Origin: Rhizophagus irregularis | Lineage: Eukaryota; Glomeromycota; Glomeromycetes; Glomerales; Glomeraceae | Length of the DNA stretch: 64,000 nucleotides | Direction: 5' to 3' | NCBI RefSeq assembly: GCF_026210795.1 | Contig: NC_089429.1 | Span: forward strand, 4,216,001-4,280,000 | Part shown: one piece after another, positions 5,080 to 60,300 of the stretch | Numbering within the stretch: position 1 is the first letter of the stretch | Layout: each line of letters begins with the position of its first letter | Notes under the pieces: model-generated | Told to the model about the DNA's origin: nothing | The model's database searches: none | What the model saw: only the letters and a program-made list of their open reading frames with translations | Made by a program: the position numbers and the translations under genes

Positions 5080-5520
5080 AAAAAATTTGTAAAAGTTTGT
5101 TTGCGAAATGGATTACAAGGTAAAGCTAGAAAAGAAATATTTTTTTTTTATTTATTTTGTTAAGAACGTTTACTAACGTTCTTTTCTTTATATTTTATTT
5201 TTTAGAAAATGGTTTTTCAGAACTAATGGACGCAAGGTAAAACTGAAAAAAAATTTTTTTATTTATTTCATTAAAAATGTTTATTTACGTTCTTTACATT
5301 TTTATTTTTTTAGAAAATGGATCCTTGGATCTTTTAAGATAAAATGGACGTAAGGTAAAGCCAGAAAAAAATTTTTATTATTTATTTCGTTAAAAAATGT
5401 TTACTAACATTCTTTATATTTTTTAGTTTTATTTTGTTATTTTATTTCGTTAAGAACGTTGACTAACGTTCTTCTTTAAATTTTTTTTAGAAAATGGCTC
5501 GCTTCCTAAGCAATGGCACC
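5080..5520 (+). repeat. Exon/intron-like array 1 (about three units)
   Basis: Each unit has a short exon-like segment that begins AAAATGG and ends ..GGACGYAAG, then GTAAAR (donor), a spacer of about 80 bases, and TTTTTTAG (acceptor). The spacers carry an inverted repeat directly before the acceptor tract, for example AAGAACGTT/AACGTTCTT at 5162-5183, with the branch-point-like TACTAAC at 5171-5177 lying in the loop and 3' arm. The unit starting near 5440 repeats it as AAGAACGTT..AACGTTCTT. The exon-like segments (about 31-41 bases) share ATGGA but have no common open frame. Same architecture as the arrays near 7.2, 8.5, 9.6-11.4 and 59.2-60.3 kb. Confidence 0.6.
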
Positions 5521-5539: not shown

Positions 5540-7135
5540 AAAAATTTTTAAAAATTTTATTAGATGGTTTGATGCCAGAACGGGATTGAAAGCACGACAA
5601 GAATGAGATAAATGGCAATTGGTCAGGGACTAACTAACGAAAAGATGGAGTGTATTGGAGTCTTCTATAAAGAGTTTGTTCTCTAATCATTATTTCTTGG
5701 CCCTTTGTTTAATTTTATCTGTATGGCCTTGTTGTTCTTCTGCTTGTTCTAGCTTATAACGTATTTAGGTAAAGACCTTAATAAAGAATTTCCAAATAAT
5801 CTATTTTCTAAGAAGAAATTCCAGTACTTCTACCTTGGCCGGAGGGGTTGAAGCAGGATCTCTTGGAATTAAAGAGAACAAGTGAATATGAATTTTTGAA
5901 AAAACCCCAGACAGAATATACTGCAGCTTTCATTAAATTCATCAGGATCACGCAAAATTGAAAAGTGATCGGATACTTTAGTGATTCAAAAATAATGCAC
6001 AGGTCGAAATGCTAAAAATTGGCAAAAAAAATGGCGCGAAAAGCAGTGGCTATTCTTGGCTATTCTTGGCTATTCTTGGCTGTTTTTGGCTATTTACGAA
6101 TTAACCTATACTATTTGTAAATAGTTTATACAAATTTGCGAATAGTTTATGCAATTTGCGCCATTTTTTTTGCCTATTTTTGATCATTTGACGTGTGATG
6201 GAAAATACAGTGCAGGCTTTCATGCAGAAAAATGATTTGAAGAAAGTATGGATGGTAAGGAATTTCAAAACAGTATATAGAGATGGGAAACGTAATAAGG
6301 ATAAGAAGAGAATAGAGGACAAGAGAGCTGCAAACTCTTTGCACAGTAAGGTAAATGATATTCTTATGCCACAAACGCCTCCAGAAAGGATTTACATGGG
6401 ACTATCAAATATGGTGACAAGGAATAAACAAAATTTATTACCCACAGAAATGATTATTGCAGAAATGAATCAAGGTCTAGGTGATTACAAGAAAAGGAGA
6501 ACGTAGATAGTGGCAGTGATGGAAACGATGATGATGATATAGGAATAGGTAATTTGGAAGAGTTAGCTAGCAAACCTTTAAAATGAGATAATGTAGCGCT
6601 GAACAAAGTTGTTGAGATTATAAAAAATTATTAAACAAACGAAAAGATAAAGTATATTTCATATCAAGCATCGTCAACAAATGCGCCTGCCAATGTTAAG
6701 GAAAGGTTAAATGGAAGAAATAAAAGGGATTTTTGATCAGAACTCCAACATGATGGAATGGAAAAAATTAACGTGGAAGTGGTGAGTGTAATATGAGCAG
6801 AGTATGATATAGTCAGGTCCTTAAAAGATTGGGTGCTTAAAGAAAATAATTTCTTTTTTTTGAGCCAAAAGTCATCAGTATGACGAAACAAAATAAAATA
6901 TTCCAGAAATATAACCACCCTTAACAATGATTTCAAAAAAAGGTTGAAAGAAGAAAATTGGAGGACCGATAAAGTAGAAGTAGGAGAAAAACAAGTATTG
7001 GTAGAGTCACCATCAAGAAGTGAATCTGAGAAAGCGAAGGTGAAGGTGAAGAAAAGAAGAAAAGAAGAAAATAGGAGATAGATAGGAATAGGAATGAAGA
7101 TTAATCGAAGTCACGTAATTTTACGTAAAAAAAAT
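5540..7135 (+). pseudogene. Decayed coding relic of unknown family
   Basis: Short coding-like stretches in shifting frames: around 5570-5650 (ARTGLKARQE, then DKWQLVRD), around 5870-5935 (KRTSEYEFLKKPQTEYTAAF) and an open frame 6195-6506 of 103 residues starting MENTVQAFMQKNDLKKVW, Lys/Arg/Asn-rich. After it an acidic stretch (GNDDDDIGIGNLEEL) and a Lys/Glu-rich purine tract to about 7085 look like a continuing but broken frame. Several stops and frame changes separate these pieces. I recognise no family. A similar purine-rich end followed by AGATTAATC..TCACGT recurs at 11940-12100, so it is probably a repeated element gene rather than a host gene. Confidence 0.35.
6053..6096 (+). repeat. Short tandem repeat, about 11-bp unit
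   Basis: Four consecutive near-identical units of TTGGCTATTC (10-11 bases), the last changed to TTGGCTGTTT and followed by a partial TTGGCTATTT. It lies inside the coding relic. Confidence 0.75.
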
Positions 7136-7179: not shown

Positions 7180-7495
7180 AAATTAAATTTTGAAGAAAGG
7201 TTCAACCGCCAGGAACTTCTCTTAAATTGCAGAAACCTTTCGGACACTTTGGAACTGATGGAAGGTACTTAAAGTTACTTTTTTTAATTAGGAACATTAG
7301 TAAACATTACTAATATTCCATTTATTTTTCTTATTGTAGGAATTTTCAAGACGCTTCAGAACCAATGAAATGCCTTGAAAGGTAATTAAAAAAGGATCGG
7401 GGTCTTTTTTAAAATTAGGAACAGTAGTAAATATTACTAATGCTCCATTTTTTTATAGAAACCAACCTTTGACTTTTTCGGTTAAACAGATCAGA
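7180..7495 (+). repeat. Exon/intron-like array 2 (about two spacers)
   Basis: Exon-like segments between TTGCAG and GTACTT, between TTGTAG and GTAATT, and after TTTATAG. The spacers contain GGAACATTAGTAA paired with TTACTAATATTCC (about 7290-7320) and GGAACAGTAGTAA paired with TTACTAATGCTCC (about 7419-7450): the same stem-loop position with TTACTAAT as branch-like motif. Exon-like parts are 32 and 42 bases and rich in GAAC and TTTCRG motifs, unlike array 1 in sequence but alike in layout. Confidence 0.55.
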
Positions 7496-8329: not shown

Positions 8330-8830
8330 CTTTTAAACAGTTACTAATTTCTTTTTTTTCGTTATTCTTCAGCTCTTTAGATGTAAAATTTGGCAAAAAT
8401 ATTATATTCTTTTGACAAAATATTTTAGACTTTGAGTCTTTCAGTGAAATTAATTTTCATTTTTTATTTTTTTTAATGAACTATTTTTAACAGTTCAATT
8501 TTTCTTTTATAAATGGACTTGGTTATTTGAATATTAGATATATGAAAATTTGGTAATAAGGAATTACTTTTAATAATTAAAAGAATAATACTAATAGTAT
8601 TTTTAATTCTCTTCTATAGATATTAACTTTGAACTTGAATATTGCTTGAGATTGGATATTTTGACATGAAATCAGGTACATATATTTAAAGAAATTTCTT
8701 TGATTTTGTTTTTATTCAAAGATATTAATGATGCTCTTTTTATTTTTTTTTTATAGATATTCAATTTTGGGCTTTAAATACGGAGTCAGTACCAAAATTT
8801 GATGCAACTAATAGGAGTTGTAATAATAAT
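8330..8830 (+). repeat. Exon/intron-like array 3 (diverged)
   Basis: Exon-like segments lie between TTTTAG/TTCTATAG/TTTATAG acceptors and GTAATA, GTACAT donors (about 8553, 8680). The spacer after 8553 holds AATAATACTAATAGTATT with a TACTAAT branch-like core before the pyrimidine tract; an earlier one holds GAACTATTTTTAACAGTTC. The pattern is weaker than in arrays 1 and 4, so individual boundaries are tentative. Confidence 0.45.
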
Positions 8831-9579
8831 TTTAAAATTAATAGAATTAGACAGGTTTTAATATTTAATTATTGAAGCTATTTTTATTTAATACTTTTGA
8901 TTAATTAGCTTTAAAAAGAATATATAATAATATATAGAACATAATAAATAAATGTATTAATAATAATAAATAAAATATAATAAATAAAATTAATAAATTA
9001 AATAATATAATAATAGACAAATATAAATAAAAAATACTTTAAGGATTCCTTATTAGCGAATTTAGAGTCCTTAAGGATTCTATAAAAATTTTATGATAGG
9101 GAATCCTTGCTAGTGGGAAAGGTTTATTAGACATCACGAAGTTAAACTAAGCATTTACCAACCATTTATTAAATGCTTTAAGAATATTTAATTTAAGTGC
9201 TTATTAAACAAGTTTCAACGCAGCTTGTATTCGATAAGCATTATTTTTTTATTGCTAATTGATTAATAGAAATTAATATAATTAAATTACTTAAATTAAT
9301 TATATAATAAACACCATTTTAGTATTGATATTTTATTATGGCATAATTTATATTTTATTATTATATTTTATACATTTTTCTATTATATTACATATAATAT
9401 ATAGTATCTTTATATTATGACTAATTTACTTTTTCAGACCTTACTACTATTTAAATTAGAAATTTGCGAAATTCCATATATAATAAGATATTATATTCAG
9501 TAACAGCCAAAAAGAAACAAAATTAAATAATGCATTCTCTGGTTGTAGCAGAAAGTGCGGTATAAAAAAACTGAAGGCA
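8831..9579. other. Intergenic, AT-rich, with left inverted arm
   Basis: No gene is supported. 8925-9020 is built from TAATAAATAAA words. 9040-9210 carries paired AAGGATTC..GGGAATCCTT words followed by CATCACGAAGTT and TTTATTAAATGCTT, which recur inverted near 12400-12560. Confidence 0.5.
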
Positions 9580-12560
9580 GAACAGACCACCACAAGCCAC
9601 AGATCATCACTACATATAGAGACCAGGTCGTCTAAAAAAAAGAAAAATTGAAACGTTAATAAAAACGTTCCGCTAAAAGAAATATATTCAAAAAAAATTC
9701 TCCTTACCAAAATTCTATGCGTCCAAAGATCTGAGCGTCTAGAAAAAAGATAAATCAAAGCGTTAATAAAGCATTTCGTTAAAAAGAAATAAATCAAAGA
9801 AAAATTCTAATACCAATTAAAATCTACGCATCCAATAATCTGATCGCCTAAAAAAAGAAGGATTGAAACGTCAGTGAGAACATTTTGCTAAAAGAAATAA
9901 ATTCAAAAAAATATTTTTGATTTTTCCTACCGATATTCCATACCAAAGGCCCGACCATCTAAATAAAAAAATTGAAACGTTAAAAACGCTTCATTCATTT
10001 CGTTTAAACAAATAATAAAGTAAAATAATAGCCCACCAAATCTAACATGTTCAGACCTGAAGAGCAAACTGACTAAAAAAAAGAAAGAAATGAATATGAT
10101 TAGTAATCTTCGTTAAAAGAAATAAATTAAATATAAAAAAACTTACGAATTCGTGCCTAGGAAATTTTGAAGTTGACTAAAAAAAGAATAATAAATAAAG
10201 CGTTAATAAACATTTTGTTAAAATAAATAAAAGAAAAAGTTACTTACCGAAATGTCACATCCAAAGAAAACTCGCCTAAAAAAAAATGAAAAAACGAAAT
10301 TGTTAGATTAACATTTCATTATAATAAAAAAATTTAAGAAACAAAAATATATACCGTAATCCACGTGTTCAAAGACTTAAAAAAAAGAAGCTGTCTAAAA
10401 AAGAGCAAGAAAACGAAACATTAGTAAATGTTTCATTAAAGAATAATTAAAAAATAGCCCCTCTCCTACCAAATTCAAGTATTCAAAAATCCAAGCCGTC
10501 CAAACTCCAGAAACCAGAAAGATCTGCCTAAAAAAGAAAAAGAAACGAACTGTTAGTATGGTTCATTAAAAATAAAAAAATTAGTAAAAAAAAATTAAGA
10601 CTTACCGAATTCCCAAGCCATCATCAATTTATTTTATTTTTAGTTAAGCTAAAAAAGAAAAAAAAGTGAATTGTTAATAACAGTTTGTTAAAGTAGTTAA
10701 ATTAAGAAAAATAAAAAAAACGTACTTAAGACTCACGTGTCAAAGAAACCAAGAGTCTAAGTGAAGTTGTTCCTAAAGAAAAAGAAAAGAAATGTTAGTG
10801 ATATTCCCAAAATACACAATTCCAACTCCTTCAATTTACAACTTACCTTTCATCAAGTTTCCTAGCCGAAGTCTGAGTCCAGGTGTTGTCTCTATAGAAA
10901 AGAATGAAATGAACATTAACATTAGTAACATTCTTAAATAAAAGAAAAAGTTCCAGCTTCACACATCCCTTCCCTTAACTTACCATAAAGTTCCTTGCCG
11001 AAATCCAAGCTCAGGAAAAAGGAAGAAATAGTAAAGTTTCATAATGAAACTTACCATTATTGAGATTTAATATTACTGCCCGATATTTCAAAAAAAACCT
11101 ACAAAAAAAAAATAGCAAAAGAAACGTTATTTAGCGTTTCTATTGAAAAAAAAGGAAAAAATGATAAGTTTCACTATGAAACTTACCATTTACACTTTAC
11201 AGAAATCCCGCGTCCAAAAAATTATTTCTTGAACTTACACTGGTTTAACATTTTCTTTACCGGTTAGACTATTTTTTTGTAGGTTTCAGTTTTAACTAGT
11301 TTCGAAGTGGTTTTCTACAAAATAATAAAAATGAAGTAAATGAAATCTAATAAAAAAAACAAAATTAGAACCAAAGAAATGAAAAACGATAATAAAAAAA
11401 ATCAATCAACTTACCAACCAGGAATATTCCTAAAGAAAAAAATTGATTAACTTTTGTCATTTCACTTGAACATGAAAGGTTTTATAAAAATGTTTTTTTT
11501 TACAATTTCATTGAATTAGCTTTTAGCTTTTTAACATTTTATACGTGATAGTAAATTTTTTCTAACGAATTTCTATATAAAAAAGATTATCAATTGAATC
11601 AGATCGATAATCATAACCGATACTGGAACTAAAAAAAAAAATAAAATTTTTTTAGTTTAAATAGACCAAATAGACCGAAATTGTATATATATAGTATATA
11701 TATATATTGAATATGATCATGATCTATAAATGTTAGAACTATATGTATATCATATGATATACTACAGCGAAATATCAAAACAGTTTTGCAGGTTTTGACA
11801 GTTTTGCAGTTTCGCATTTTATGATTTTACGAAACTAATTTTGGTAGTTTTGCATATATTACACCGCAAAACCCCTACATTTTTAGTTTAAAAAAAGAAT
11901 TTTTGGTTTTTTTTATGGGTGATTTTAACTTTTAAACAGAAGGGGAAAGGATAAAAAAGAGGAAAGAACAAAGGAAAAGAATAAAGGAAATGGAAATGGA
12001 GAGAGTGAAAGGAAGGAAGAAAAATAGAAGAGTGAAAAAAGTGAAGCTTCGTTGAAAAAAAAATTTGTAAAAAAAAGATTAATCTATATCACGTGATACG
12101 CGTAATACTAATTTTGGGACATGATTTTTTTTTAACAAGTTTATATTATTACATCAAAGGTAAGCCCCTAAGACTTAATATAAAAATAACAAAATCTAAA
12201 TGCTTATATTCTATGTTTTTTTAATAATAAATTCAAATGTTTAATTGATATTTTTTTTTCATAGCAATTAATAAGTATTAATTTAAAATATTTTTTAAGT
12301 GTTTTGTTAAAGTAGCAATTATGAAGTATTTAATAATTAATATTTAATTTGTAATTTATTACAATGATAAATAAATGCTTATTTTAAATACAAATAGATG
12401 TTCATGAAACATTAAGCATTCAGTAAATATAAAATTTAAGCATTTATTAAATAATTTGTGTTTGATGAATACAAGTCTAACATTTGATCAACTTCGTGAT
12501 GGAGATCTTTACTAATTACAGGATTTTTGGAATCCCTAAGGATTTGCATCCCAAAAAATT
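9045..12560. mobile_element. Possible 3.5-kb element with diverged long inverted arms
   Basis: The left arm (about 9045-9300) contains GGGAATCCTT, CATCACGAAGTT, AAGCATTTA and TTTATTAAATGCTT. The right arm (about 12300-12560), read on the minus strand, contains GGGATTCC, CATCACGAAGTT, AATAAATGCTT and AAGCATTTATT in the same order. The arms are clearly diverged and I could not set exact ends or a target duplication. The interior is array 4 plus AT-rich DNA; no transposase is visible. This may be a nonautonomous element that carries the array, or a chance pairing of related AT-rich repeats. Confidence 0.35.
9600..11450 (-). repeat. Exon/intron-like array 4 (about 15 units, minus strand)
   Basis: Read on the minus strand, units of about 100-120 bases repeat: TTTTTTAG, exon-like segment, GTAAG/GTAGG donor, spacer. 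Well-defined exon-like segments are 9738-9708 (31 bases), 10176-10147 (30) and 10275-10248 (28); others are 28-58 bases. They share a loose core GATCTTTGGAYG and an end ATTTTGG or ATTTCGG. The spacers carry a hairpin just before the acceptor, such as GAAACATT/AATGTTTC at 10415-10434 and GAAACGTT/AGCGTTTC near 11120-11140, with TACTAAC or TATTAAC in it. Exon lengths are not multiples of three and stops are present, so a noncoding spliced transcript or a relic fits better than a protein gene. Confidence 0.6.
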
Positions 12561-36759: not shown

Positions 36760-38166
36760 TTAACTCAATTCAATTATTTGAACATTTTGAGAAGGTTGAA
36801 TTCGAAGGCGACCAGGATGACATAACGATGCTACAGGATAAAGCCTTGATGGTAAATCATTCCACACTAGTACGTCTGGATACCTTACGCCATTGACCGT
36901 AAAGGCGCAAGTTCCGCAATTCATATTTAAATGAACAGTAACTCTCGCACCATCTCCAAATTTATTACAATATTCGTTTTGCCAAATTCCGGAATTACAA
37001 CAATTGCCATTGGAACCCAATACCCATCCATTGGGTTGAGATCCTGCAAATTTTTCGTAATTTAAATCCCCTGGTCCGCATACTCCGACATAAACAATTT
37101 TACACTTTCTCTCAATAATGACGTCCCACTCATAGATTCCTTCATTTTCAAATGACATTCTACTTCTAATACTTTGAAGATGGTTACCATATGGCGATTC
37201 TACAACATTTCCATTTTCCTTAATAATAAGTCTCGATCCACATGCTAACTCATCCCAAGCGTAAGAAGATATTCCGCGAACATCGTTTAAATCAGAATCA
37301 TTCGACATTACTTTATATCGATAAACATCCATGATTACTTCTGATGGAATAATTCCCAATGGCTCAATAAATTTTGCTAATATTTGACCTTTAATTCTCT
37401 TGAAATCAATATATTCAATTAAAGGTTCTAATATTTCAGCAACTTTTTGACAATCGGTAAAATTATTTTCTACTTGGATCTGATTTTCTATTTGTTCTAA
37501 AACTGGTAACTGTTTAAAAAGAATTTCATATGCATCGTTGGATACTTTTTTTCCTGCTAGAATAACACTATATCTGAGAACTTCGTATTCCGGTGTTGCA
37601 AAGGGCTTTGCTTTCTCGTGTGTGTGAGACAAAAGACATTGAAGTGCTTCAAGTGATAATCGACCAAATTCAATTGCATTTAATGGAATAGTTGCTAGTT
37701 CTTCGACTAACAAGTTTACGAGAATATTATTTTCCGTAAATGGCATAGTTTTCACGACTTTCGACAAAAATTCTGGTAAATAATCTTCTGAGCGACTAAC
37801 TAGTAAGGCATTTTTTAAAATTCTCATGATAAATTCCTGGAGATTTGGTAATTGAAAATAATCTGCGGCGCTGAAGGCTTCAATTATATTTTCTTCGGTT
37901 ATTGATTCTTCTTTAATTGAACCTGTATAAGCATATTCCAACACAATTTCCATTACAAAAGAATTAATCGTTGGAAAAGAAATTTGATTCTCGTAGCTTT
38001 CTTTCATTCCATTATAAAGTAGCCCATCAAATACTTCTGATCTCGCTGCTAATATTGCCCTAGATGCATATAATCTTTTATTATCTTCACAAATAATTTC
38101 TATATCGCTATATTTTGGGTTATTTAATAATAATTTTAAATCTTGGTCTAGCGAATATCCTTTCAT
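36760..38166 (-). CDS. BTB-BACK-SPRY protein 1 (468 aa)
   Basis: Intronless frame, start MKGYSLDQDLKLLLNNPKYS. BTB/POZ domain at about residues 15-120 (YSDIEIICED, CRAIL-type helix ASRAILAARSEVFDGLLYNG, EYAYTGSIKEES). BACK-like helices at about 125-215 (IPLNAIEFGRLSLEALQCLL, ATPEYEVLRYSVILAGKKVS). A linker rich in acidic residues leads to a SPRY domain at about 305-460: GIYEWDVIIERKCKIVYVGV, PNGWVLGSNGNCCNSG, VTVHLNMNCGTCAFTVNGV, and YPVASLCHPGRLRIQ. In other fungi and animals BTB proteins of this build bring substrates to Cullin-3 ubiquitin ligase, the SPRY part binding the partner. First of a cluster of seven copies. The SPRY core shows extra cysteines compared with its neighbours. No regulatory motif could be assigned. 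Confidence 0.88.
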   Translation of the reverse strand: MKGYSLDQDLKLLLNNPKYSDIEIICEDNKRLYASRAILAARSEVFDGLLYNGMKESYENQISFPTINSFVMEIVLEYAYTGSIKEESITEENIIEAFSAADYFQLPNLQEFIMRILKNALLVSRSEDYLPEFLSKVVKTMPFTENNILVNLLVEELATIPLNAIEFGRLSLEALQCLLSHTHEKAKPFATPEYEVLRYSVILAGKKVSNDAYEILFKQLPVLEQIENQIQVENNFTDCQKVAEILEPLIEYIDFKRIKGQILAKFIEPLGIIPSEVIMDVYRYKVMSNDSDLNDVRGISSYAWDELACGSRLIIKENGNVVESPYGNHLQSIRSRMSFENEGIYEWDVIIERKCKIVYVGVCGPGDLNYEKFAGSQPNGWVLGSNGNCCNSGIWQNEYCNKFGDGARVTVHLNMNCGTCAFTVNGVRYPDVLVWNDLPSRLYPVASLCHPGRLRIQPSQNVQIIELS

Positions 38167-38510
38167 ATTTGAAAATCAAATTTTTTAAATTTTTTTTATT
38201 TTTAAGAAACAGAAAGTGGGTTGTAAGCTTACATGAGACGATAAGCCAAATAAGCTAATATTTATATATTTTTTGCATCAGATTTTCAACAAATTAGGTG
38301 ATTTAAATATGAATCGGAGAAAATTTGGAATCAAACATTCTGATGTATTACCAAATAAGTATTTTAAACAACGCGTTTGTACTTAAAATCACATTCTTAT
38401 ACTTATACGCGTGATTAATTATAATAAATAAAATCGACGTGATTGTACCGTATAGGCGTATACACCGTGTACACTTGATTCACTTGATTCCTGATTTTAA
38501 AAATTTTATA

Positions 38511-38941
38511 TGGTGGCTGTCACCTATAAACAACAATAGTCCGAAATTTTGAAATTTATTTATTTATATTGTGTAACTTATGTTTTAAAGTACTTTGTCA
38601 AAATATTAATTGCCGCGTGAGCGGCAAAATTTTTTTTTTGCCATATTACATGGAATTCTTGTGGATTTCCATGGAATTTTTGTAAAATCCATAAAAATTA
38701 CATGAAAACTAGTCCGAAATTTTATATTTTTATTATTGCTACTTATTAAAATTATCCAACTTTAACCCATAATATTAATTAAAATTCTTATTAAATTCTA
38801 TAAAATAATCCGATAGAAATGTTCAGTACATGTTGCTATATCATTTTATCGGTTTAGTTTTTTCTTTTTACTATTCAATTTACAATTTATAAAAATTTGA
38901 AGTCACTTAATATTAGTGTGGTTTATAGGTGACAGCCACCA
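38511..38941. mobile_element. 431-bp MITE with TA target duplication
   Basis: The left end TGGTGGCTGTCACCTATAAA and the right end, read inverted, TGGTGGCTGTCACCTATAAA are identical for at least 20 bases and continue to AC. TA flanks both sides (38509-38510 and 38942-38943), as for Tc1/mariner-type MITEs. The interior has no coding capacity and a GC-rich hairpin TTGCCGC-GTGA-GCGGCAA at about 38610-38630 followed by a T run. It lies between BTB copies 1 and 2. Confidence 0.8.
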
Positions 38942-39253
38942 TAGTACTATAGTACTGACAATCCCAATAAAAATTAAAGAAATCTTCATATTATAATCCG
39001 TTATATTTGGGACGGGTATTATACCGTCGTATGACCTGTATTTTAGGCATATCGAGATCGAGGTATCGGCTCATTCAGGTGTATCGAGCGGATTATTTTA
39101 TCACGTAAAAAATATGTTAATTGTGTAAATCAGCATACAAAGTACTTTTTGTTTATTCATTTTTAGACTTCGATATATAATACAAATACATACTGTACGT
39201 CATTCGAATTAAAATTTTTTTCTTATTCATCTTCTATATTAACGACCTTTAAA

Positions 39254-40645
39254 TTATTTTCTATGATAAAATTGAATTCGATAGCGACCAGGATGGCGTA
39301 ATGTTACTAGAGGATAAAGCTTTGATGGTAAATTATTCCACCCCGATACTACCGGATACCTTTTACCATTGACTGTAAAAGCGCAAGTTCTTTTATTCAT
39401 ATCTACATGTGCAATGACTTTTGCGCCATTTCCAAATGGTTGGCAATAATTTGATCCTTTACCAGAATTAAAGCAATAACCAGTAGAACTTAATACCCAT
39501 ATAGTAGATTGAGCCTTCGACATAGTTTCAAAATTAATATGCTCTGATGAACATACTCCAACCCAAGCAGGTTTACAATCTTTCTCAATAACAAAATCAA
39601 ATTCAAAAATGCCATTATCTTCTAACGCCACTTTAGCTTTAATACCTTGGTATGAATTAACACCATTTGGCGCACTTACAACTTTTTTATTATTTTCAAT
39701 AATGAGTTTTGATCCACACGCTGAACTATCCCAAACATAATCAAAATCATAGGGTATTCCTCGAGTTCCATTAATATCATTGTTAAGCGATGTTACTTTT
39801 TGTCGATAAGCATTAAAAATTATTTCAGTCGAGATAATTTTCAATGGTTCAATAATATTAGTTAAAATTCTTCCTTTAATTTGACTAAAATCAATAAATT
39901 TAGCTAAAGGATCCAATTCTTCAGCAACTGTTTGATTGTCGGTAATAGATTCGTTTATTCCTTGAATTGGATTCTCTATTTGTTCCAAGGATGGCAACTG
40001 TTGCGTAAGAGCTTGAAATGCATTATCCGAAACTTGCTTTGCTGCTAGAATAGCACTATATCGAAAAACTTCATATTCTGGAGTTGCAAAGAACTTTTCT
40101 TTTTTATGTGTACAATATAAGAGATATTTAAGTCCTGTAGTTGATAATCGACCAAATTCGATAGTATTTAATGGAATAATTGCTACTGCTTCAACCAATA
40201 AATTGAGAAATGCATTATCCTCCGTTAATGGCATTAATTCCGCGGCTTTAGATAGTAACTCTGGTGAATAATCTGTTTCTAATTTATTTTTAATAATTTT
40301 CATAATAAAATCTTGAAGATCTGATAAATGAAAATACTCTGCAGCACAAAAAGCTTCTATTAAATTATTATTCGTTATTGATTCTTCTTTAATTGAACCT
40401 GTATAAGTATATTCCAACACAATTTCCATTACAAAAGAATTAATCGTTGGAAAAGAAATTTGGTTTTCATAACTTTCTTTCATCCCATTATAAAGTAATT
40501 TATCAAATACTTCGGACCTTGCAGCTAAAATTGCTCTACAGCCATATAGTTTCTTTTCATCTTCACATAAAATTTCTATATCACTATACTTTGGATTATT
40601 TACTAACAGTTTTAAGTCTTGTTCTAATGAACATCCTCTCGCCAT
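39254..40645 (-). CDS. BTB-BACK-SPRY protein 2 (463 aa)
   Basis: Intronless, start MARGCSLEQDLKLLVNNPKY. BTB at about 15-120 (CRAILAARSEVFDKLLYNGM, EYTYTGSIKEESIT), BACK-like region at about 125-215 (IPLNTIEFGRLSTTGLKYLL, FATPEYEVFRYSAILAAKQV), linker, and SPRY at about 300-458 (FEFDFVIEKDCKPAWVGVCS, TIWVLSSTGYCFNSG, VDMNKRTCAFTVNGKRYPVV, YPLVTLRHPGRYRIQ). Compared with copies 4-7 the SPRY strand EWDVIIEK is EFDFVIEK. All domains are complete, and length matches the family in this window. Same predicted role as Cullin-3 substrate adaptor. It shares the nucleotide stretch covering SFPTINSFVMEIVLEY with copy 1, so these two are close duplicates or have exchanged sequence. Confidence 0.88.
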   Translation of the reverse strand: MARGCSLEQDLKLLVNNPKYSDIEILCEDEKKLYGCRAILAARSEVFDKLLYNGMKESYENQISFPTINSFVMEIVLEYTYTGSIKEESITNNNLIEAFCAAEYFHLSDLQDFIMKIIKNKLETDYSPELLSKAAELMPLTEDNAFLNLLVEAVAIIPLNTIEFGRLSTTGLKYLLYCTHKKEKFFATPEYEVFRYSAILAAKQVSDNAFQALTQQLPSLEQIENPIQGINESITDNQTVAEELDPLAKFIDFSQIKGRILTNIIEPLKIISTEIIFNAYRQKVTSLNNDINGTRGIPYDFDYVWDSSACGSKLIIENNKKVVSAPNGVNSYQGIKAKVALEDNGIFEFDFVIEKDCKPAWVGVCSSEHINFETMSKAQSTIWVLSSTGYCFNSGKGSNYCQPFGNGAKVIAHVDMNKRTCAFTVNGKRYPVVSGWNNLPSKLYPLVTLRHPGRYRIQFYHRK

Positions 40646-41251
40646 TTTTTGAGAATTTTTTTTTTCAATTTCAATGATTCTATTTTAAGAATTTGACTTA
40701 TATATAAAAAAGTGGTTACACTATGTGCAATGCAGATCATCTCGATAATTAGTTAACAAAAAAAAAAAAAACTTTATTTTTTTGTTAAAAAAAATTAAAA
40801 TTTTTCATCAATTGAATTCTCAAATTAATTATATTTTTTGACTTAAGAGATACGAATTTAATTCTACTAGTTTTATATAAACGTATATTAACAAGATATG
40901 ATATGGTTATAGGTTTATGATAAGAGACCGGAAATAAATGATTGAATTTGAAGGCGACCAGAGTTATATAATGATACCATAGGACAAACCTTTGAAGATA
41001 AATAAATCTCAGCGAATATTTTTTACATTAATTGCAAACAACAATTTTTTTTTTATTATATCCGAATGTCTCAAATGAGGGACGATATCTGGATGATATC
41101 ATGTTAATTACCATAACACCTAATGTCCATATACTATTGAAAAATTACTATGCCGCAGGTAATTTGATCCAAACATGTGTGCATATTTTCTCTATAACAA
41201 TATCTCATTAAAAATACCTTTGTTTTCTAATGCTATTTTAACTCTCACACT

Positions 41252-41813
41252 TAAAGATGGTCAATGGTCCTACTTGGTCCTAATCGGTCCTACGTGATCG
41301 GTCTTTGGGACGGACCGGACCGCAGTCCTTAATACCCGGTCCTAAATAAAGACCGATCACGATGATGGGTAAAATCTATCACGTGACATTACACAAATCC
41401 AAAAAAGGAAATTTTTGTTCCCGTCACACTTGGATCCTGGGGAAAATCTTACCACACCACCCTCGGTTATACAGTGACATTTAGCGTCACATTGTCATGT
41501 GATATCCGCATTCGCATTTTTTATATTTATCTGAGGGACTTACTAGCCTGATCATTATTTGTCACAACCTCGGAAATCACACCCCCAACAAATATTTTGT
41601 GTAACCGAGGGTGGTGTGGTAAGACTACCCGGATCCTGGTTACACTACAATACAAAAAAGGAAATTTCTATGCCGATCATTTAATTCTGGCCGGAATTAT
41701 CATAAATTTCGAAATTTATAAAGACTGATGGAGGACTGCGTTCTATGTGGTCCGGTCTTTTTGCATGTAGGACCGGTCTTAACCATGGTCTTTAGGACCG
41801 TTGACCATCTTTA
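41252..41813. mobile_element. hAT-type nonautonomous element (562 bp) with 8-bp target duplication
   Basis: The left end TAAAGATGGTCAATGGTCCT and the right end, read inverted, TAAAGATGGTCAACGGTCCT match. Both sides carry CTCACACT (41244-41251 and 41814-41821), an exact 8-bp duplication as hAT elements make. Subterminal GGTCCTA/GGACCG/GACCGGTC words repeat through both arms. No coding capacity. It is inserted in the SPRY part of BTB copy 3 and carries the nested element at 41447-41624. Confidence 0.85.
41447..41624. mobile_element. 178-bp MITE nested in the hAT-type element
   Basis: The left end TCTTACCACACCACCCTCGG, continuing TTATACA, and the right end, read inverted, TCTTACCACACCACCCTCGG, continuing TTACACA, match over 27 bases with one difference. 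No clear target duplication; GGATCCTGG lies close to both ends in direct orientation. Noncoding. Confidence 0.75.
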
Positions 41814-42289
41814 CTCACACTCTGTTGTAAGTTACAATCAACTGGCATTTTGTACAACATCTCCATCATCCTCAATAATAAGTTTTGATCCACATACTGC
41901 TTTAATTGAATTCCTCATTAGAATTTTATACGTATTGTTAGAAATTTTTTTACCACAAGAATCGGCGCTGTATTGAAAAACTTCATATTCCGGAGTTGCA
42001 AAATGTATTTCTTTTTACATGTACAAAAGCTTTAATAGATAATCGACCAAATTCAATGGTATTTAATGGAGTAGTTGCCACTGTTTCAACCAGTTGATTA
42101 AGGAGAATATTATCTTCCGTCAATTATCATCGTATCTACAGCTTCAGATAATAATTCAGTTGAATAATTACTGTATCTTTGTAATTCTCCTCTAAATATT
42201 TTACCGGTTTTTTTTATGACGAAAATTTAAAGCCTCAATAATTGAGAATAATCCGCAGCAATAAATTTGTACTATATTATCTTTAGTTA

Positions 42290-42640
42290 GGGGATGGCCA
42301 GAAATGACGTAATTTAAATTTTAGGATTTTTGCCCCCCGCCTCGAACTTGTGATTCCACTCCACATGTTTCGTCACAGGGTATTCAGAAAACATTGGTTC
42401 CACTTAGAATTTCCACGATGGATCCATGTGGATTTCTCTGCAGATTTTGACCGGCAAAAACTTCCTGATGAACTTTATTAACCTCCCTATGTCATCATTC
42501 ATTTTAGGAAATGTAAAATTAAAACACAATTCTGACTAGAATTATATTAACTACAAGTGTCTAAAAATGGAAGGTGTGTAACATCATCATGGTCTTAACC
42601 CCCTCCCCCTTAGGAAATGACGTCATTTCTGGCCATCCCC
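42290..42640. mobile_element. 351-bp Tourist-like (PIF/Harbinger-type) MITE
   Basis: The left end GGGGATGGCCAGAAATGACG and the right end, read inverted, GGGGATGGCCAGAAATGACG are identical over at least 21 bases. TTA flanks each side (42287-42289 and 42641-42643): the 3-bp TWA duplication of PIF/Harbinger elements. Noncoding. Inserted in the BTB part of copy 3. Confidence 0.85.
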
Positions 42641-42870
42641 TTATCCTTTAATTGAACCCGTATAAGAATATTCTAATATCCATTACAGTAGACTCAACAG
42701 TTAGAAGAGAGATTTGATTTTCATATATAGTAATCCGTCAAATAATTCTGACCTTGCAGCCAAAATTGCTTTAGATGCATATATTTTTTTTTTATCTTTA
42801 CATAAAATTCCTATATCGCCATATTTGAGTTATTTATCAACAATATTAAGTCTTATTTTCCTCTCTTCAT

Positions 42871-43808
42871 TTTTTTTTTTATGTCCAAGAAACTTATAAA
42901 TAGTTTAAATTTAGATAAGTAGAGTGTGTTGCATAACAAAGATCAAAATTTAGATCGGATAGCAAATTGTCGATATACGTAATATTTATAATTATTCCTT
43001 GGTTGTAACTTAATTTAATATAAGCAGATAACTTATGGATTTTACAAAATAATATGAATAATGATTCTCAACGTCTATGAAAGAAGAAGAATACTATGAA
43101 AATGAATATGAAGATGAATGGGCCGAGAAGACGAATTAGAAGCTTATGTTTCACTCGATCTAGACTCGAAATTTTTACGAAGGGAAGAGAAATTGCGCAC
43201 TCAACAGTTCAATTCAAGTTTATAGCATTATATTCTAGACTTCGAGTGAGTCAAGTATTGATCTAATATCAATGATATAATATTTAGCGTATTTTGACGG
43301 TATATTGATCATTTCGTGATTATTGTCATTAAAATGATTTTTTTTTATTAATAAATATTGGTTTTTAAGAAATTATAATAATAAAATATCTAAAAAAAAA
43401 AATTGTTATAAATTAAATGAATAAATTAATCGGGTAACGTTTAACCTGCCTTACTGCTAAATTGTACGTATAATTTCAAATATAACACTACGTTTGCTTA
43501 TTAACAATCATTAGTCTTATTCTAACGAATATCCTCTTGTCATTTCTAATCACAGTTATAATGATATTCAAAGATTATAAAGAGTTGTATCTATACATTA
43601 TAGCTATGTGTGCAATGAAGATATGATGCTTTTAACAACTGGAAGTTTAATTGAAATTCATACGGCACATATAAATAATTTCATTCTACGCTAAATACAA
43701 AATTTTTTACTAATGAATTTCTCGACTAAATTATATTATCATCATGACTTTAAATAATATCCAATTTTATTTACTCTCGCATGTATTATAGAGGGTATAT
43801 ATGTAGAT
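42871..43808. other. Intergenic between BTB copies 3 and 4
   Basis: No gene is supported. 43500-43540 on the plus strand holds a short inverse match to the start of a BTB gene (TCTAACGAATATCCTCTTGTCATTT, the antisense of MTRGYSLE), a possible sixteen-codon remnant of another copy. Confidence 0.45.
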
Positions 43809-45224
43809 TTATGATTTTTGATGAGGTTGAATTCGAAAGCGACCAGGATAATGAAATGATACTACGGGATAAAGCTTTGATGGCAAATTATTCCATGTTG
43901 ATACTACCGGATATTTTGTACCATCTACTGTAAAAGCACAAGTTCTTTTATTCATATCTAGATGAACAGTGATTCTTGCACCATTTATAAATTCAGGACA
44001 ATAATCAAGTTGCCAATTCCCGAAATTACAACACCTACCATCACTACACAATACCCATCCATAAGACACCCAACTTTCACTTTCAAAATTTTCCAATGTA
44101 CATACTCCAATATGAAAATAAACGCTGACTTTCTCAATAATGACATCCCATTCAAAAATGTTTTCATTCTCTAATGCAAGTTTTGCTCTAACACTTTGAT
44201 AATTATAAACATTTGCTGATTTAGTACGTACAACTTTTCCATTATCCTCAATAATAAGGTTTGATCCACATGCTGATTCATCCCAAACATAATCGGATTC
44301 ATTAAATTTGTAAATTGACGTTGGAATTCCTCGAATATCATTTAAGTCTGAACTATTCGATTTTGCTATATATCGATAAACATTTAAAATTATTTTGGTT
44401 GGGATAATTTCTAATGGATCAATGAGATCAGCAAATATTTGTCTTTTAATTCGTCTGAAATCAATAAATTCAACCAAAGGTTCCAATTCTTTAGTAACTT
44501 CTGATATTCGGTTATTGTCAATAAATTTAATTTCTATTTGGATCGAGTTATTCATTTGTTCTAAGGTAGGTAATCTCTCCATAAGAATTTTGTATGCACT
44601 ATTAGAGACTTGTTTTGCTGCCAGAATAACGGCATATCGAAAAACTTCATATTCTGGCGTTGCAAAGGGCGTTTCTTTATTATATGTATAAGATAGGAGA
44701 TGTTGAAGTGCCTTGATTGATAATCGACCAAACTCAACAGTATTTAGTGGAATAGTTGCTACAGATTCGACTAATAAATTTAAGAGAATATTATCTTCCG
44801 ATAGCGGAATTGTATTCACTACTTTAGATAATAATTCTGGTGAATAATTTTTTGCATAATTAGCACTTTTAATAGTTTCCATAATAAATTTCTGAAGGTC
44901 TAGTAATTGAAAATAGTCTGCAGCATAAAAAGCTTCGACTATATTTTCTTTATTTAAAGATTCTACTTTAATTGATCCCGAATAAATGTATTCTAATATA
45001 ATTTCCATTTCGGAAGAATTAATATTCGGGAAAGAAAAATGATTTTCATAACTTTCTTTCCTCCCATTATAAAGAAATTTATCAAATACTTCGGACCTTG
45101 CTGCTAAGATTGCTCTGCAACCGTGTAGTATTTGTTTATCCTTACATAAAATTTTTATATCACTATATTTTGGATTATTTATTAATAATCTCAAATCTTG
45201 TTCTAATGAATATCCTTTCGTCAT
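43809..45224 (-). CDS. BTB-BACK-SPRY protein 4 (471 aa)
   Basis: Intronless, start MTKGYSLEQDLRLLINNPKY. BTB at about 15-120 (CRAILAARSEVFDKFLYNGR, ILEYIYSGSIKVES), BACK-like region at about 125-215 (IPLNTVEFGRLSIKALQHLL), linker with INPTKIIL-like helix, and SPRY at about 315-468 (IFEWDVIIEKVSVYFHIGVC, YGWVLCSDGRCCNFG, VHLDMNKRTCAFTVDGTKYP, YPVVSFHYPGRFRIQ). All three domains are complete. Within SPRY the strand after EWDVIIEK differs strongly between copies (VSVYFHIG here, ACKWFWVG in copy 6, LCEYAWIG in copy 7), which is where ligand-facing variation would be expected. Predicted Cullin-3 adaptor. Confidence 0.88.
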   Translation of the reverse strand: MTKGYSLEQDLRLLINNPKYSDIKILCKDKQILHGCRAILAARSEVFDKFLYNGRKESYENHFSFPNINSSEMEIILEYIYSGSIKVESLNKENIVEAFYAADYFQLLDLQKFIMETIKSANYAKNYSPELLSKVVNTIPLSEDNILLNLLVESVATIPLNTVEFGRLSIKALQHLLSYTYNKETPFATPEYEVFRYAVILAAKQVSNSAYKILMERLPTLEQMNNSIQIEIKFIDNNRISEVTKELEPLVEFIDFRRIKRQIFADLIDPLEIIPTKIILNVYRYIAKSNSSDLNDIRGIPTSIYKFNESDYVWDESACGSNLIIEDNGKVVRTKSANVYNYQSVRAKLALENENIFEWDVIIEKVSVYFHIGVCTLENFESESWVSYGWVLCSDGRCCNFGNWQLDYCPEFINGARITVHLDMNKRTCAFTVDGTKYPVVSTWNNLPSKLYPVVSFHYPGRFRIQPHQKS

Positions 45225-46090
45225 TATTGGATTTTTTTTTGTTGAGAAATTGAGAAAGAAGTTTTGTTATTCATCCCATTTCAGACCAAATTTATCGTTA
45301 TAGTAAGTGTAGATTTTTTACAAATTTAGATTCGTACCAAATTCAATTTGGAAAATCGAGTCACGTGTGCATGATATAACAATTTTTTTTACGATTAAAT
45401 AAAAAAATTATTACAAATTTTAAATCTTTTTTCGTTAACAACGCAATTTGCATGAAAATTAAAACATTTTTCATTTATCTGTTACATATTTATGTATAAT
45501 TGTTAATTAACATCTTTTTTCTACGTGTAGTTATAGTTTAAAATCTCCATACGGTCGCATCTCTAGTTGAGAATTACAAAATCGTGTAAATTTTGAATTA
45601 TCATTATAAAGTGAAAATTATGAAATGTTTGGATTAGTAATAACTTCAGAAAATAATACAAAATTAGAAGGAATTTATGTTAATGGCTTTATCCGATCGT
45701 AAGAAATATTGACATAACAAAATATTATATTTATGGGAAACAATGTTCTTAATTTATTGATATATCTATTCCATTAAATATTATTCATTTTTATTGATAA
45801 CCTTTCAATATCTTAAGCGCGTCAGACTGTCATAATTTATATCAATGTAGTAGAGCTAAATTACATAAGAAATAAAGATATTTTCTTAATTTCTTTATAC
45901 CGCTATTAACCAAAATATGTCCCTATAATTCTGGAACATGCTAATTTAAAAAATTGATCAATGTGTTACATTCAGTTATCGATCATGAACAAATGTTCAC
46001 GAAAAAAAATGGAAATAAAATTTTATAATATTACAATATAACATTGTCCGTTTATTAAATAAAAAAAAACATGTAATTGTCTAAATTTAT
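45225..46090. other. Intergenic upstream of BTB copy 4
   Basis: AT-rich promoter side of copy 4. No further element was recognised. Confidence 0.5.
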
Positions 46091-46426
46091 TGCACCCCGC
46101 GGTTTTATATGATCACGTGAAATTTATTTATACAGTTAAAGTAGGATCGGCATCGTGCATGAATTAGAAACCGCGCCCAGAAAACGGAGCTGCTTTTTTT
46201 TTTTTAACAATGAACAATTCTATAAAATAAAAACGTGTACAACATGTGCACAATGAGTCATCGTGTCACGATAACCATAAATCACATTATTTTGGTAATA
46301 TACAATAAATTTGCAGCTCCGTTTTCTGGGAGCGGTTTCTAATTCATGCACGATGCCGATCCTACTTTAACTGTATAAATAAATTTCACGTGATCATATA
46401 AAACCGCCCCAGAATCAGGGGGTGCA
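46091..46426. mobile_element. 336-bp foldback MITE with about 100-bp inverted arms
   Basis: The left arm (46091-46195) and right arm (46314-46426) are nearly perfect inverted repeats: shared words include GGTTTTATATGATCACGTGA, AGTAGGATCGGCATCGTGCA and AACGGAGCTGC. The outermost bases are TGCACCCC on both sides; the right arm has an extra CTGATTCTGGGG near its end. The loop is about 118 bases and noncoding. It borders the truncated BTB copy 5 directly, so its insertion or a recombination at it may have removed that gene's start. Confidence 0.85.
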
Positions 46427-46433
46427 AAAAAAA

Positions 46434-46992
46434 AACATAGTGATATAGAAATATTATGTGAAGATGAAAAGAAACTATATGGTTGTAGAGCAATTTTGGC
46501 TGCAAGGTCCGAAGTATTTGACAGATTACTCTATAATGGGATGAAAGAAAGTTATGAAAACCAAATTTCTTTCCAAAAATTAATTCCTCCGGGATGGAAA
46601 TTATATTGGAATATATTATACGGGATCAATTAAAGAATAATCTTTAACTAAAGAAAATATAGTTGAAGCTTTTAATGCTGAGTATTCAAGATTTTATCGT
46701 GAAAACTCTTAAAAATACTCTTAAAAAAAAATCACAAAAAATTTTTCACCAGAATTATTATCTAAAATTGCAGAAATAATGTCATTAACAGAAGATAATG
46801 TTCTTCTTAACTTATTGATTGAAACGGTGGCAATTATTCCATTGAATACTATTGAATTTGGTCGATTATCTATTGTAGGCCTCAAACATCTTTTATCTTA
46901 TACACAAGAAAAAGAAAAATTTTTTGTGACCCCAAAATTTAAAGTTTTTCGATATAGTGCAATTTTAGCAGCAAAACAAGTTTCTAATGATA
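46434..46992 (+). pseudogene. BTB-BACK-SPRY copy 5, truncated at both ends
   Basis: The text begins at SDIEILCEDEKKLYGCRAIL, lacking the first 19 or so codons, continues ARSEVFDRLLYNGMKESYEN and shifts frame near 46575. A stop lies in the GSIKE-SLTKEN segment (about 46640), then the frame is broken through 46680-46760. A clean open stretch (46779-46990) encodes the BACK-like part NTIEFGRLSIVGLKHLLSYT and AILAAKQVSND, after which similarity ends abruptly. The linker and the whole SPRY domain are missing. It is flanked by the foldback MITE on the left and repeat-rich DNA on the right. Confidence 0.8.
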
Positions 46993-47830
46993 CACCCATG
47001 CATAGCAACATGCTGCTCCATAAATAATGCATAAAAAAACAAGTTTTACTTTACTCACTTTTGATATTGCTTCAGGCAAATTAGATGTTAAGATGAATAA
47101 AAGAGCTGATTAAACGAAAATAAGAGAGATGAAAGGGAAAGAAAAAGCAATCAAGAGAGGGAAGAGAAGAAAGAAAAGGAAGGATGAGAGACAACAAGAG
47201 TAGGAGAGAAAGAGTGAGGGAAGAAACAGAAAAGTGTAAGAGGAAAAAGGGTTTAAAAAAGAAGGCGGGAGAGAAGGAGAGAAAGGAGAGGAAACTGAAA
47301 AAAGAGTAATATAAGATTATTAAATATCTAATAAGAAAAATGATATGTCAAATACTTTTCGCGCAATGCGCAACAAAAAGTCACATGCAATTTGCGTAAA
47401 AACAAATCCAATTTGCGCTTCTAATACTGTATCTGCAAATCTAAGTTTTTAAATATAAAATTTTAAATTATAAGTTGCGCTATGCTCAAACTAGAATTAT
47501 GTATAATTTGCAGAAATTAAAAAGTAAGTTGCGCTCCGCAAATTCTGCAAATAGATTTCATACACTGAGTAAGATTGTATTGGAATAGTGGGAGTCTGTC
47601 TTTTTTCGATGTCTGCGCGGAAAATTCCATAAAGTGCGTATCTCCAAATTTTTTTTTATTTTAAGTTTGATAATTAAACTAGAAAATCATTAATTTCTCT
47701 TCTTTTCAATTTTTATACACGTGTTACTATCGCCTTATAAAGTAAATTATTGTTTAGTTCCTTGCATTAAATATTAATTTATGTTACTAAAATAGCATGC
47801 TGTGTCGCTGCGAAGCAAAGATTACCACAA
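46993..47830. repeat. Repeat-rich stretch: purine tract and TTTGCGC motifs
   Basis: 47085-47310 is an almost pure GA-rich tract on the plus strand (AGAGA, GAAAGGA words). 47355-47560 has about eight copies of TTTGCG, TTGCGC or their inverse (GCGCAAT, CGCAAAT). The same association of TTTGCG words with purine-rich DNA is seen at 6020-7080, so this may be a related, noncoding element remnant. No ends could be set. Confidence 0.4.
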
Positions 47831-47837
47831 GAATGAT

Positions 47838-48000
47838 TCAGATAAATAATTCTATAAAAATTGGAATTATAGCTTCACACCAAAGTTTATTAACTAACAA
47901 ACAAGAGAATAGAGTTTTTTTACACTTTTTATTGTTATTCATAAGCCCAATCAAATGATTTATACCAGATAGCGTCGTTGTATTTGAATATAATGAAAGT
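47838..48000 (-). pseudogene. F-box gene fragment
   Basis: The minus strand encodes LYSNTTTLSGINHLIGLMNN followed by KKTLFSCLLVNKLWCEAIIP, the F-box motif pattern (hydrophobic heptads, then SCLLVNKLWC..IP) seen in the two F-box genes of this window. It stops after about 50 residues, where WE-type continuation would be expected. The in-frame upstream text to 48071 is low-complexity and overlaps a hairpin, so it is probably not part of the gene. Confidence 0.5.
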
Positions 48001-48064
48001 AGATTTATGAAAAGTTCATTTAAACCTTGAAAAATATGATAAAAGAATATCATTATGAAATTGA

Positions 48065-48107
48065 ATATCAATGATTTTCACGGCGCAGCCGTGAAAATCA
48101 TTGATAT
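48065..48107. repeat. Perfect 20-bp stem, 3-base loop palindrome
   Basis: ATATCAATGATTTTCACGGC at 48065-48084, loop GCA, then its exact complement at 48088-48107. Lies about 190 bases before the start of BTB copy 6. Confidence 0.9.
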
Positions 48108-48294
48108 CCACAGTTCCCCGTGAAATAACTATCACTTAATAGTTTGAATATGAACGTTTAAAGACTCTTTTTAGGTAATCGGAGATCCATGTGACAGTAA
48201 ATTTTTTCACCGTACACATGGTACTACAGCGTACAACCCAATTTATTATAAATCAAATTTAATCATTCACATAAACTCGTGTTAAAAAAAAGAA

Positions 48295-58870: not shown

Positions 58871-59159
58871 TTTACCTTTTAAAATGTTTTAAACGGTTAT
58901 TCACAAAATTTATTCTTTGTATTCTTTGTTCATGAAATATGTATTTATGGTAAGACGAATTTTTATTGGTGTTAATAAATTTCTTAATTTAGATATTAAT
59001 ATTTAACACCATTTTCTAGTGTAATCAGGTGATTATCGATCAATTATAAAAAAAAACCACACGAAAACAACCGAAACAATACCAAAACTTATTAAAATAA
59101 ATAAGAAATAATCTTATACAATAATAATTAAGTTTTATTTAATTTAAGTACCCTTTATT
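58871..59159. other. 5' flank of the hAT transposase gene
   Basis: Short AT-rich flank that should contain the 5' terminus of the hAT element; no terminal repeat could be identified. Confidence 0.4.
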
Positions 59160-60300
59160 TGCTCAAATATCCTGAAATACCGATCGCTTACAAAAAAAGA
59201 AAACCAAAATAATTGGTAATTATTTCATTAGCCGGATAATACCGATGCTTTGATATTTTATTCACAAACGCTCAATTCAGTTTGCGATTGGTCAAAACAG
59301 GATGGTTCAATACAATACATTGATGTTTTCTAAAAAGTCGGAATGATGGGATGGGAAGATTATTTGAAATTGTTGACAGCTTTATAAAGGAAGGAGCGAA
59401 GTTTGGAAAAGAAATAATAATTCAAATTAAGTCCAAGGATCTATACCGGTAGTGAAAGTATTCTATAATTTATCAAATATATTGATCTCAAATAAATGAA
59501 TATTTAATTTGGATCTCAGTTATAATATCTTGAAAATCCCTTACCCATCCAAATATCGCGAATACCAGTTGTCTACAAAAAACATGAAATAATTAGTAAT
59601 TATTTCGTTAATAAAGAAATGAATCAAAAAAAATGAACCTTACTTACTCAAATATCCCGAATACCGATCGTCTATAAAGATGAAAAAAAAGAAACAATTA
59701 GTATTAAATTGTTTCGTTAAAGAATATTCAAAGAAATCCCCTCATCAATTACCATGAAATCAAGTATCCCGAAGTACCGATTGCCTACAAAAAAAAATAA
59801 AATAAAATAAACGAAACAATTAGTAATCGTTTTGTTAACAAAAGAAATATAAATTATTTTTAAAAAAAAACCCTCACCTAGTCAAGTATCCCGAAATATT
59901 GATCGTCTACAAAAAAGAAAATAAATGAAACAATTAATAATCATTTCGTTAACAAAGAATTCTTTAAAAAGAACTCACATCCATTCAAATATCCTTGCCC
60001 AAAGACTCGAAAATTCAGCCGTCTAAAAAAGAAATATCAGAACTTAGTAAATGTTCTGTTAAAATAAACAACTAAGGTAAAATAATAAATACCCTTACCA
60101 AAATTTCCACGCGCCTGTTCAGACCATCTAAAAAATGGAGGAAACGAATGTTAGTGTTCTTCGCTAAAAGAAACAAATTAAATTAAAAAAAAAATACTTA
60201 CAAAGGAGTTTGAAGAAATCAACTAAAAGAAAAATGAAACGTTTTATTAACGTTTCGTTAAAAATTATAAAAAATTCAAAGTTTTACCTTCGAAAACCTA
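59160..60300 (-). repeat. Exon/intron-like array 5 (about nine units, minus strand)
   Basis: Read on the minus strand, units of about 110 bases repeat: TTTTTTGTAG or TTTTTTAG, exon-like segment, donor GTAAGG, GTGAGG or similar, spacer. Exon-like segments share the core ACGATCGGTATTTCGGGATA with a TTGA ending. Spacers have hairpins at the branch-site position: GAAACAATT/AATTGTTTC at 59691-59715 and GAAACGTT/AACGTTTC at 60236-60256, plus GAACTTAGTAAATGTTC near 60030-60050. The stems differ between units but stay paired. Same family as array 4, about 48 kb away. Confidence 0.6.

Follow-up and report, generated by a model that had tools for sequence, protein, structure and literature searches.

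Tandemly repeated units of short exons and related introns, many with a palindrome at the branch site, may form noncoding, spliced loci in a fungal genome

What kind of locus consists of one short exon-like segment after another, each bounded by apparent splice signals, and holds no reading frame? The question is raised by five arrays (A to E; Table 1) in a 64-kb stretch of AT-rich fungal DNA (G+C 20-36% in 2-kb steps), here called the window. About 15 such units had been described on the minus strand at 9600-11450 in an earlier sequence-only reading; 15 consecutive GT...AG introns were found there, from 11414 to 9632 (array D), and the three exons that it gave as examples (9738-9708, 10176-10147 and 10275-10248) are exact. 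As annotated, all of these introns (15/15) begin with GT and end with AG, and their acceptors are T-rich in nearly every case; the third intron has a weak acceptor, ending in TTCCTGAG. The motif TTTTTTAG, which had been attributed to the units, is present exactly in 8 of the 15 and not in the other 7. A 15-nt piece precedes the first intron, and the 14 pieces between introns measure 128, 44, 26, 45, 36, 43, 58, 40, 28, 30, 36, 28, 34 and 31 nt. Units 1-3 are atypical in having the 128-nt exon and, in the first and third, a branch-site palindrome that is not clear. The region has a G+C content of 21-26% and long T runs. The CT-rich stretch upstream of array D, which we take to be promoter-like from its likeness to other fungi, could be a candidate promoter or transcription start region for the array.

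Table 1. Coordinates of the five arrays and of the features associated with them
Feature	Position	Strand	Description
Array A	5120..5490	plus	introns 5120-5205, 5237-5313, 5355-5426, and a half unit
Array A, half unit	5427-5490	plus	palindrome and acceptor kept; exon and donor absent
Array B	7233..7458	plus	exon 7233-7264, intron 7265-7339, exon 7340-7381, intron 7382-7458
Array C	8437..8756	plus	decayed unit 8437-8510; introns 8553-8619, 8676-8756
Array D	9632..11414	minus	15 consecutive introns with short exon-like pieces between
Array D, introns 1-5	11414-11315, 11186-11099, 11054-11010, 10983-10892, 10846-10773	minus	
Array D, introns 6-10	10736-10649, 10605-10528, 10469-10395, 10354-10276, 10247-10177	minus	
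Array D, introns 11-15	10146-10073, 10036-9959, 9930-9848, 9813-9739, 9707-9632	minus	
Array D, start of terminal exon-like segment	9560..9631	minus	after the last acceptor; 3' end undefined
CT-rich stretch	11940..12045	minus	0.5 kb upstream of array D
Array E	59573..60287	minus	7 consecutive introns
Array E, introns 1-4	60287-60223, 60201-60128, 60098-60023, 59978-59907	minus	
Array E, introns 5-7	59877-59785, 59752-59672, 59643-59573	minus	
Array E, last complete exon	59545..59572	minus	donor at 59544
Displaced E-type unit	59150..59260	minus	branch-site palindrome, acceptor and exon; judged by eye

A like layout had been reported elsewhere in the window. Array E has it in its 7 introns; one further E-type unit (59230-59150), set apart from them by an insert of about 280 bp, matches the array E model weakly (E=0.21). 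The plus-strand arrays are shorter and partly decayed, with 3 introns and a half unit in A, 2 introns in B and 3 in C, where the unit at 8437-8510 has lost both donor and acceptor.

Chains of splice signals were sought with generic rules that had no training on the arrays (donor GT[AG][ATG][GT]; [CT]AG after at least 10/12 pyrimidines; an upstream [CT]T[AG]A[CT] branch site; intron lengths of 55-105 and exon lengths of 20-62). These rules gave a chain of 5 consecutive introns in array D and another of 5 in array E, and chains of at least 3 were absent elsewhere in the window. Shuffling that preserved local dinucleotides, applied 60 times in blocks to the entire window and 1000 times to each of the regions D and E, never gave a chain of more than 2 introns. 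The signals and the periodicity pointed out previously are therefore real. On the plus strand the longest chain under these rules is 1, and hence arrays A to C are put forward on layout and homology.

When ten window ORFs were compared with Pfam, one was BTB plus SPRY, one had an LtrA match slightly under the curated cut-off, two had a Tc1-like transposase match (HTH_Tnp_Tc3_2; DDE_3), one had DUF659 and five had no match. A gene set of this kind is reminiscent of arbuscular mycorrhizal fungi such as Rhizophagus. At 36760-53673, five ORFs of 463-500 codons resemble one another, each with a BTB-like start and a SPRY-like end; one of them was Pfam-tested. Repeats are also present, namely a short MITE-like element at 5998-6197, whose inverted ends, about 43 nt long and 86% alike, flank a TGGCTATTCT repeat; an inverted repeat at 9041-9108 with 23-nt arms (78% complementary) and the ends AAGGATTCC/GGAATCCTT, possibly a small MITE-like element; and a minisatellite of 11 copies of a 19-bp unit (96% matches) at 55846-56056.

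Two LtrA-type genes in the window, which have many introns, supplied 16 control introns from 16 of their 20 junctions; these were placed by paralogy and, as the genes are paralogous, only about 8 of the control positions are independent. Statistics on whole array introns (splice signals and 3' hairpins) cover 30 of the 31, with the half unit A4h omitted. In the array introns, which had been annotated with the help of these same signals and with no unit inside D or E omitted, the pyrimidine fraction before the acceptor is 0.82 (30 introns), against 0.54 in the 16 controls (p=3.5e-7), and a [TC]A[CT]TAA[CT] branch site occurs in 20/30 introns, against 2/16 in the controls. The branch site chosen for each intron is 18-35 nt upstream of the acceptor in 30 of the 31 introns, and the acceptor is the first AG downstream of the branch A in 26 of 29 (D01 and D03 omitted). 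GT donor, branch site, pyrimidine tract and AG thus stand in register as in U2-type introns, and by their sequence the splice signals of the arrays look functional. The earlier description of complete splice signals stands, both in the GT...AG ends throughout array D and in signals stronger than those of the 16 coding-gene introns.

The introns of different arrays are related to one another. A model trained on array E introns only matched those of array D, 50 kb away, with a best E value of 8.5e-6 and 4 of 15 introns at E<0.05; nothing on the reversed window, used as a control, matched it better than E=1.7. When each array in turn was left out of training (A4h, C1, D01, D02 and D03 omitted), the held-out models detected 8 of 15 introns in D, 5 of 7 in E, 1 of 4 in A, 1 of 2 in B and 0 of 3 in C at E<0.05, with best matches of 0.26-1.7 outside the arrays and 0.17-1.6 on the reversed window. 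A model of 25 of the 31 introns (A4h, C1, C3, D01, D02 and D03 omitted) reached E=0.81 at best outside the arrays and 0.24 on the reversed window. The introns of D and E are clearly one family, of which a single clear member is found in each of A and B. The claim of intron homology is limited to A, B, D and E, because the held-out model fails on array C, whose membership of the family rests on its layout.

The exons are related as well. Their local alignment score is 7.45 within arrays and 6.71 between them, in neither case reached by any of 200 shuffles (means 6.25 and 6.22). The motif TTGGA is present in 10 of 26 exons, where mononucleotide shuffles give 1.36, a comparison in which units sharing descent are not independent, and it is found in arrays A, B, C, D and E. 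The exon core proposed in the sequence-only reading, GATCTTTGGAYG, is exact in 1 of 27 exon pieces, and TTGGA is the shared part; nor do the arrays differ wholly in their exon cores, as had been suggested, since this motif is common to A-E. Exon identity within array D is 0.54 versus 0.50 in shuffles, so that a function at the level of the exon is weakly indicated; for introns the values are 0.72 and 0.65. Neighbouring introns of array D are more alike (0.32) than distant pairs (0.18-0.22), as local duplication predicts, and in array E similarity has no clear trend with distance. Since related exons and related introns stand together in tandem, the unit that was copied is exon plus intron. The amplification of such units proposed at the outset thus agrees both with the exon similarity (above 200/200 shuffles) and with the homology of introns between arrays.

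On balance, we favour the reading that the arrays are noncoding, probably spliced loci formed by tandem duplication of exon-intron units, each made of a short exon (mostly 21-58 nt) and a U2-type intron of about 75 nt. Splice signals have been kept through much divergence, so that splicing probably matters or has mattered; transcription is likewise inferred from their retention. The minus-strand arrays would be transcribed and spliced to a short RNA (about 0.6 kb for D) of related modules. About four in ten modules would carry UUGGA, and one RNA-binding protein could then bind such an RNA many times over. Amplification probably proceeded by local unequal crossing-over or slippage, perhaps aided by the palindrome, and not by transposition.

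This palindrome is an inverted repeat around the branch site of many array introns, idealised as GAAACGTT-TACT-AACGTTTC, with arms of roughly 8-13 bp and letters that vary by array; in array B, a mirror of the branch site lies inside the left arm. The arms of one intron fit each other better than those of other introns do, scoring 13.8 together; re-dealing them lowers the score to 10.4 (sd 0.62; p=0.00005) across the 31 introns and to 11.8 (p=0.00025) if each array is kept apart; taken separately, D gives p=0.013, E p=0.0035 and A+B p=0.086. The branch site was picked by motif score in this arm-swap test, by which the palindromes of E1, D09 and array B were missed, a choice that we think lowers the observed value. 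In a sequence alignment of 30 of the 31 introns (D03 omitted), single positions are A-U/G-C in 9/9, 15/6 and 7/13, double-change cells number 31 versus 17.8 in shuffles (5/500 shuffles), and the named register exceeds all six slid registers in paired cells and in covariation score. Double-change pairs (6 versus 5.6) and further pair types (17 versus 18.1) are not above shuffles. Compensatory change of the kind expected for a hairpin is thus seen in the arm-swap test and the double-change cells, with these two other measures at the shuffled level. RNAalifold predicted no consensus pair on the sequence alignment because, in our reading, the arms fall in two registers.

The best 3' hairpin of the array introns is above that of shuffles (Fisher p=2e-6), with 14 of 30 introns individually at p<0.1; the control introns reach p<0.1 in 3 of 16 and likewise show a slight excess (Fisher 0.09, Wilcoxon 0.03). 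Eight array introns, a non-random choice, folded with z from -4.4 to 0.2, and those at 59573-59643 and 59785-59877 are hardly or not stabler than shuffles (z -1.0 and 0.2). At two places on the minus strand in array D, 11186-11164 and 11054-11034, the donor itself lies within a hairpin-forming stretch; the former folded with the donor in the hairpin, and the latter is not above shuffles as a hairpin.

A hairpin in the sense-strand RNA should tolerate G.U more than A.C. In the fixed register the counts were 20 and 20 (expected 28.6 and 28.4), and in the best register 9 and 9 (29 of the 31 introns; D01 and D03 omitted), which does not favour RNA. A palindrome at the level of DNA therefore explains the arms as well as an RNA hairpin does, and it may be maintained at that level, for example by template switching. 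A possible, if rather unlikely, explanation of the arrays as a whole follows the same line: palindromes in the DNA (through template switching, a protein site or a cruciform) would promote duplication, and the splice signals would be kept only through transcribed surroundings. The equal frequency of G.U and A.C cells is in keeping with it, as is the occurrence of palindromes and tandem units together in each of the five arrays (in some units and not in others). However, the branch site keeps its distance from the acceptor in 30/31 introns and the palindrome surrounds it in many, a placement that a DNA-only feature does not predict unless it was inherited from a founder unit.

In spliced arrays of duplicated exon-intron units, the palindrome would place the branch site in a hairpin loop and inner stem, where folding would compete with recognition of the branch site. 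In an engineered system, splicing was inhibited when an RNA-ligand structure sequestered the branch site (PMC2275289), and structure is depleted around the canonical splice sites of yeast introns (PMC12350175); the hairpins, if formed, should hinder splicing. Splicing of the arrays may consequently be slow or conditional, which is the least certain step of the proposed mechanism. We advance only tentatively, as an unlikely idea, that the arrays belong to an undescribed class of fungal noncoding genes that grows by exon-intron units and in which a branch-site hairpin, present in most introns, acts as a brake or switch, so that pre-RNA folding sets how many modules, and which, enter the spliced RNA.

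Micro-exons have precedents in the micro-exon genes of schistosomes and the bicycle genes of aphids, and the arrays might be decayed relics of a protein-coding family with many micro-exons, an origin suggested by the short exons between short introns and by the higher G+C content of most exons (0.25-0.50) compared with the intron mean (0.21). Such an origin is quite improbable given the frames and phases, on which a coding micro-exon gene was rejected. Open exon-frames number 41 of 81 (27 pieces), with no excess over the 42.5 in shuffles, in agreement with the noncoding character claimed before; 4 of the 27 pieces have stops in all three frames, so that stops do occur, as also noted. Exon lengths modulo 3 are distributed 6/10/10 (26 exons, all arrays), giving no constant phase. 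With the exons taken in order, the longest stretch free of stops measures 168 nt in D, where shuffles average 204, and 114 nt in E, where they average 152; no continuous reading frame runs across the exons. A single ORF of at least 55 codons (ATG/GTG/TTG start) overlaps array D, at 9456-9797 on the minus strand; it lies at the 3' end of the array and passes through introns. Finally, the splice signals are still strong, unlike what decay of a whole gene would leave.

Known kinds of gene were also considered and rejected. An array of snoRNA host type should hold a known structured RNA in each intron; among the known families of Rfam, the window has 0 matches at gathering thresholds. The SP7-like effector genes of Rhizophagus are repeat-containing genes of the same probable fungal group, with a different gene structure (PMC11333574). 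Cell-surface protein genes of these fungi are described as having one or two introns.

The arrays could instead consist of introner-like elements, mobile introns inserted side by side with slices of the invaded sequence between them as exons. Related introns do occur in several places, and their palindromes recall fungal introner-like elements and symmetrical stwintrons, but the exons are related within and between arrays, which points to joint copying of exon and intron. Outside the listed arrays, no significant intron match was found in the 64 kb, the two LtrA-type control genes included, and a comparison of ends and flanks across the five arrays gave only AT-rich low-complexity matches. As exons travel with introns and the window has no single copies, insertion of mobile introns is doubtful; a transposable element with shared ends was rejected since the array flanks are not in common. 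No sign of mobility was seen in the window, which has no convincing unit outside the listed arrays. No relatives of 966 bases of array D were found in phage records. Searches with patterns of the branch palindrome brought up 10 stretches in prokaryote genomes and, in viral contigs, 0 and 2, with one match each, and these 12 stretches (10 titled bacteria or archaea) are taken as chance; no fungal contig was confirmed among viral contigs searched with the window proteins.

That the arrays are a plain AT-rich tandem repeat with T runs and GT/AG by chance is very improbable: low G+C content and T runs would suit it, but shuffles that preserve local dinucleotides never exceed a chain of 2, the first AG downstream keeps register with the branch site in 26/29 introns, and the like chains that it predicts at equal density in other intergenic regions are missing from the rest of the window at lengths of 3 or more.

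Tandem noncoding exon-intron loci exist in mammals, in the SNORD116 host locus and the lncRNA Firre. The arrays resemble these in their repeated noncoding exon-intron units and differ in being fungal, in having much shorter units, and in matching no Rfam family at gathering score. In the Hypoxylaceae, internally symmetrical sister stwintrons and cropped sister introns have been described (PMC8469720, PMC9024468). They share with the arrays a large number of related fungal introns, inverted-repeat symmetry and a branch site maskable by predicted pairing. Their symmetry extends over terminal repeats of 45-55 nt and their copies lie at novel gene positions, whereas here arms of about 8-13 bp surround the branch site and the copies are in tandem with exons and noncoding. 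Introners and introner-like elements (PMC9860276, PMC4457414) are likewise families of similar introns in one genome, but they insert in many genes, while the units described here stand in tandem with related exons. The first of these papers cites the Pezizomycotina as fungi that have introners, and neither Rhizophagus nor Glomero- or Mucoromyc- occurs in its main text. Related symmetrical fungal introns and introners are already known; tandem exon-intron arrays combining the features seen here were not found described in the titles and abstract openings listed by searches of the open-access literature.

If the arrays are spliced, they exemplify a route of intron gain that has been little studied, in which introns multiply outside coding genes and take their exons with them, and their branch-site palindromes provide a natural series in which the effect of masking on splicing could be measured. 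Such arrays would be hard to find for gene predictors based on reading frames.
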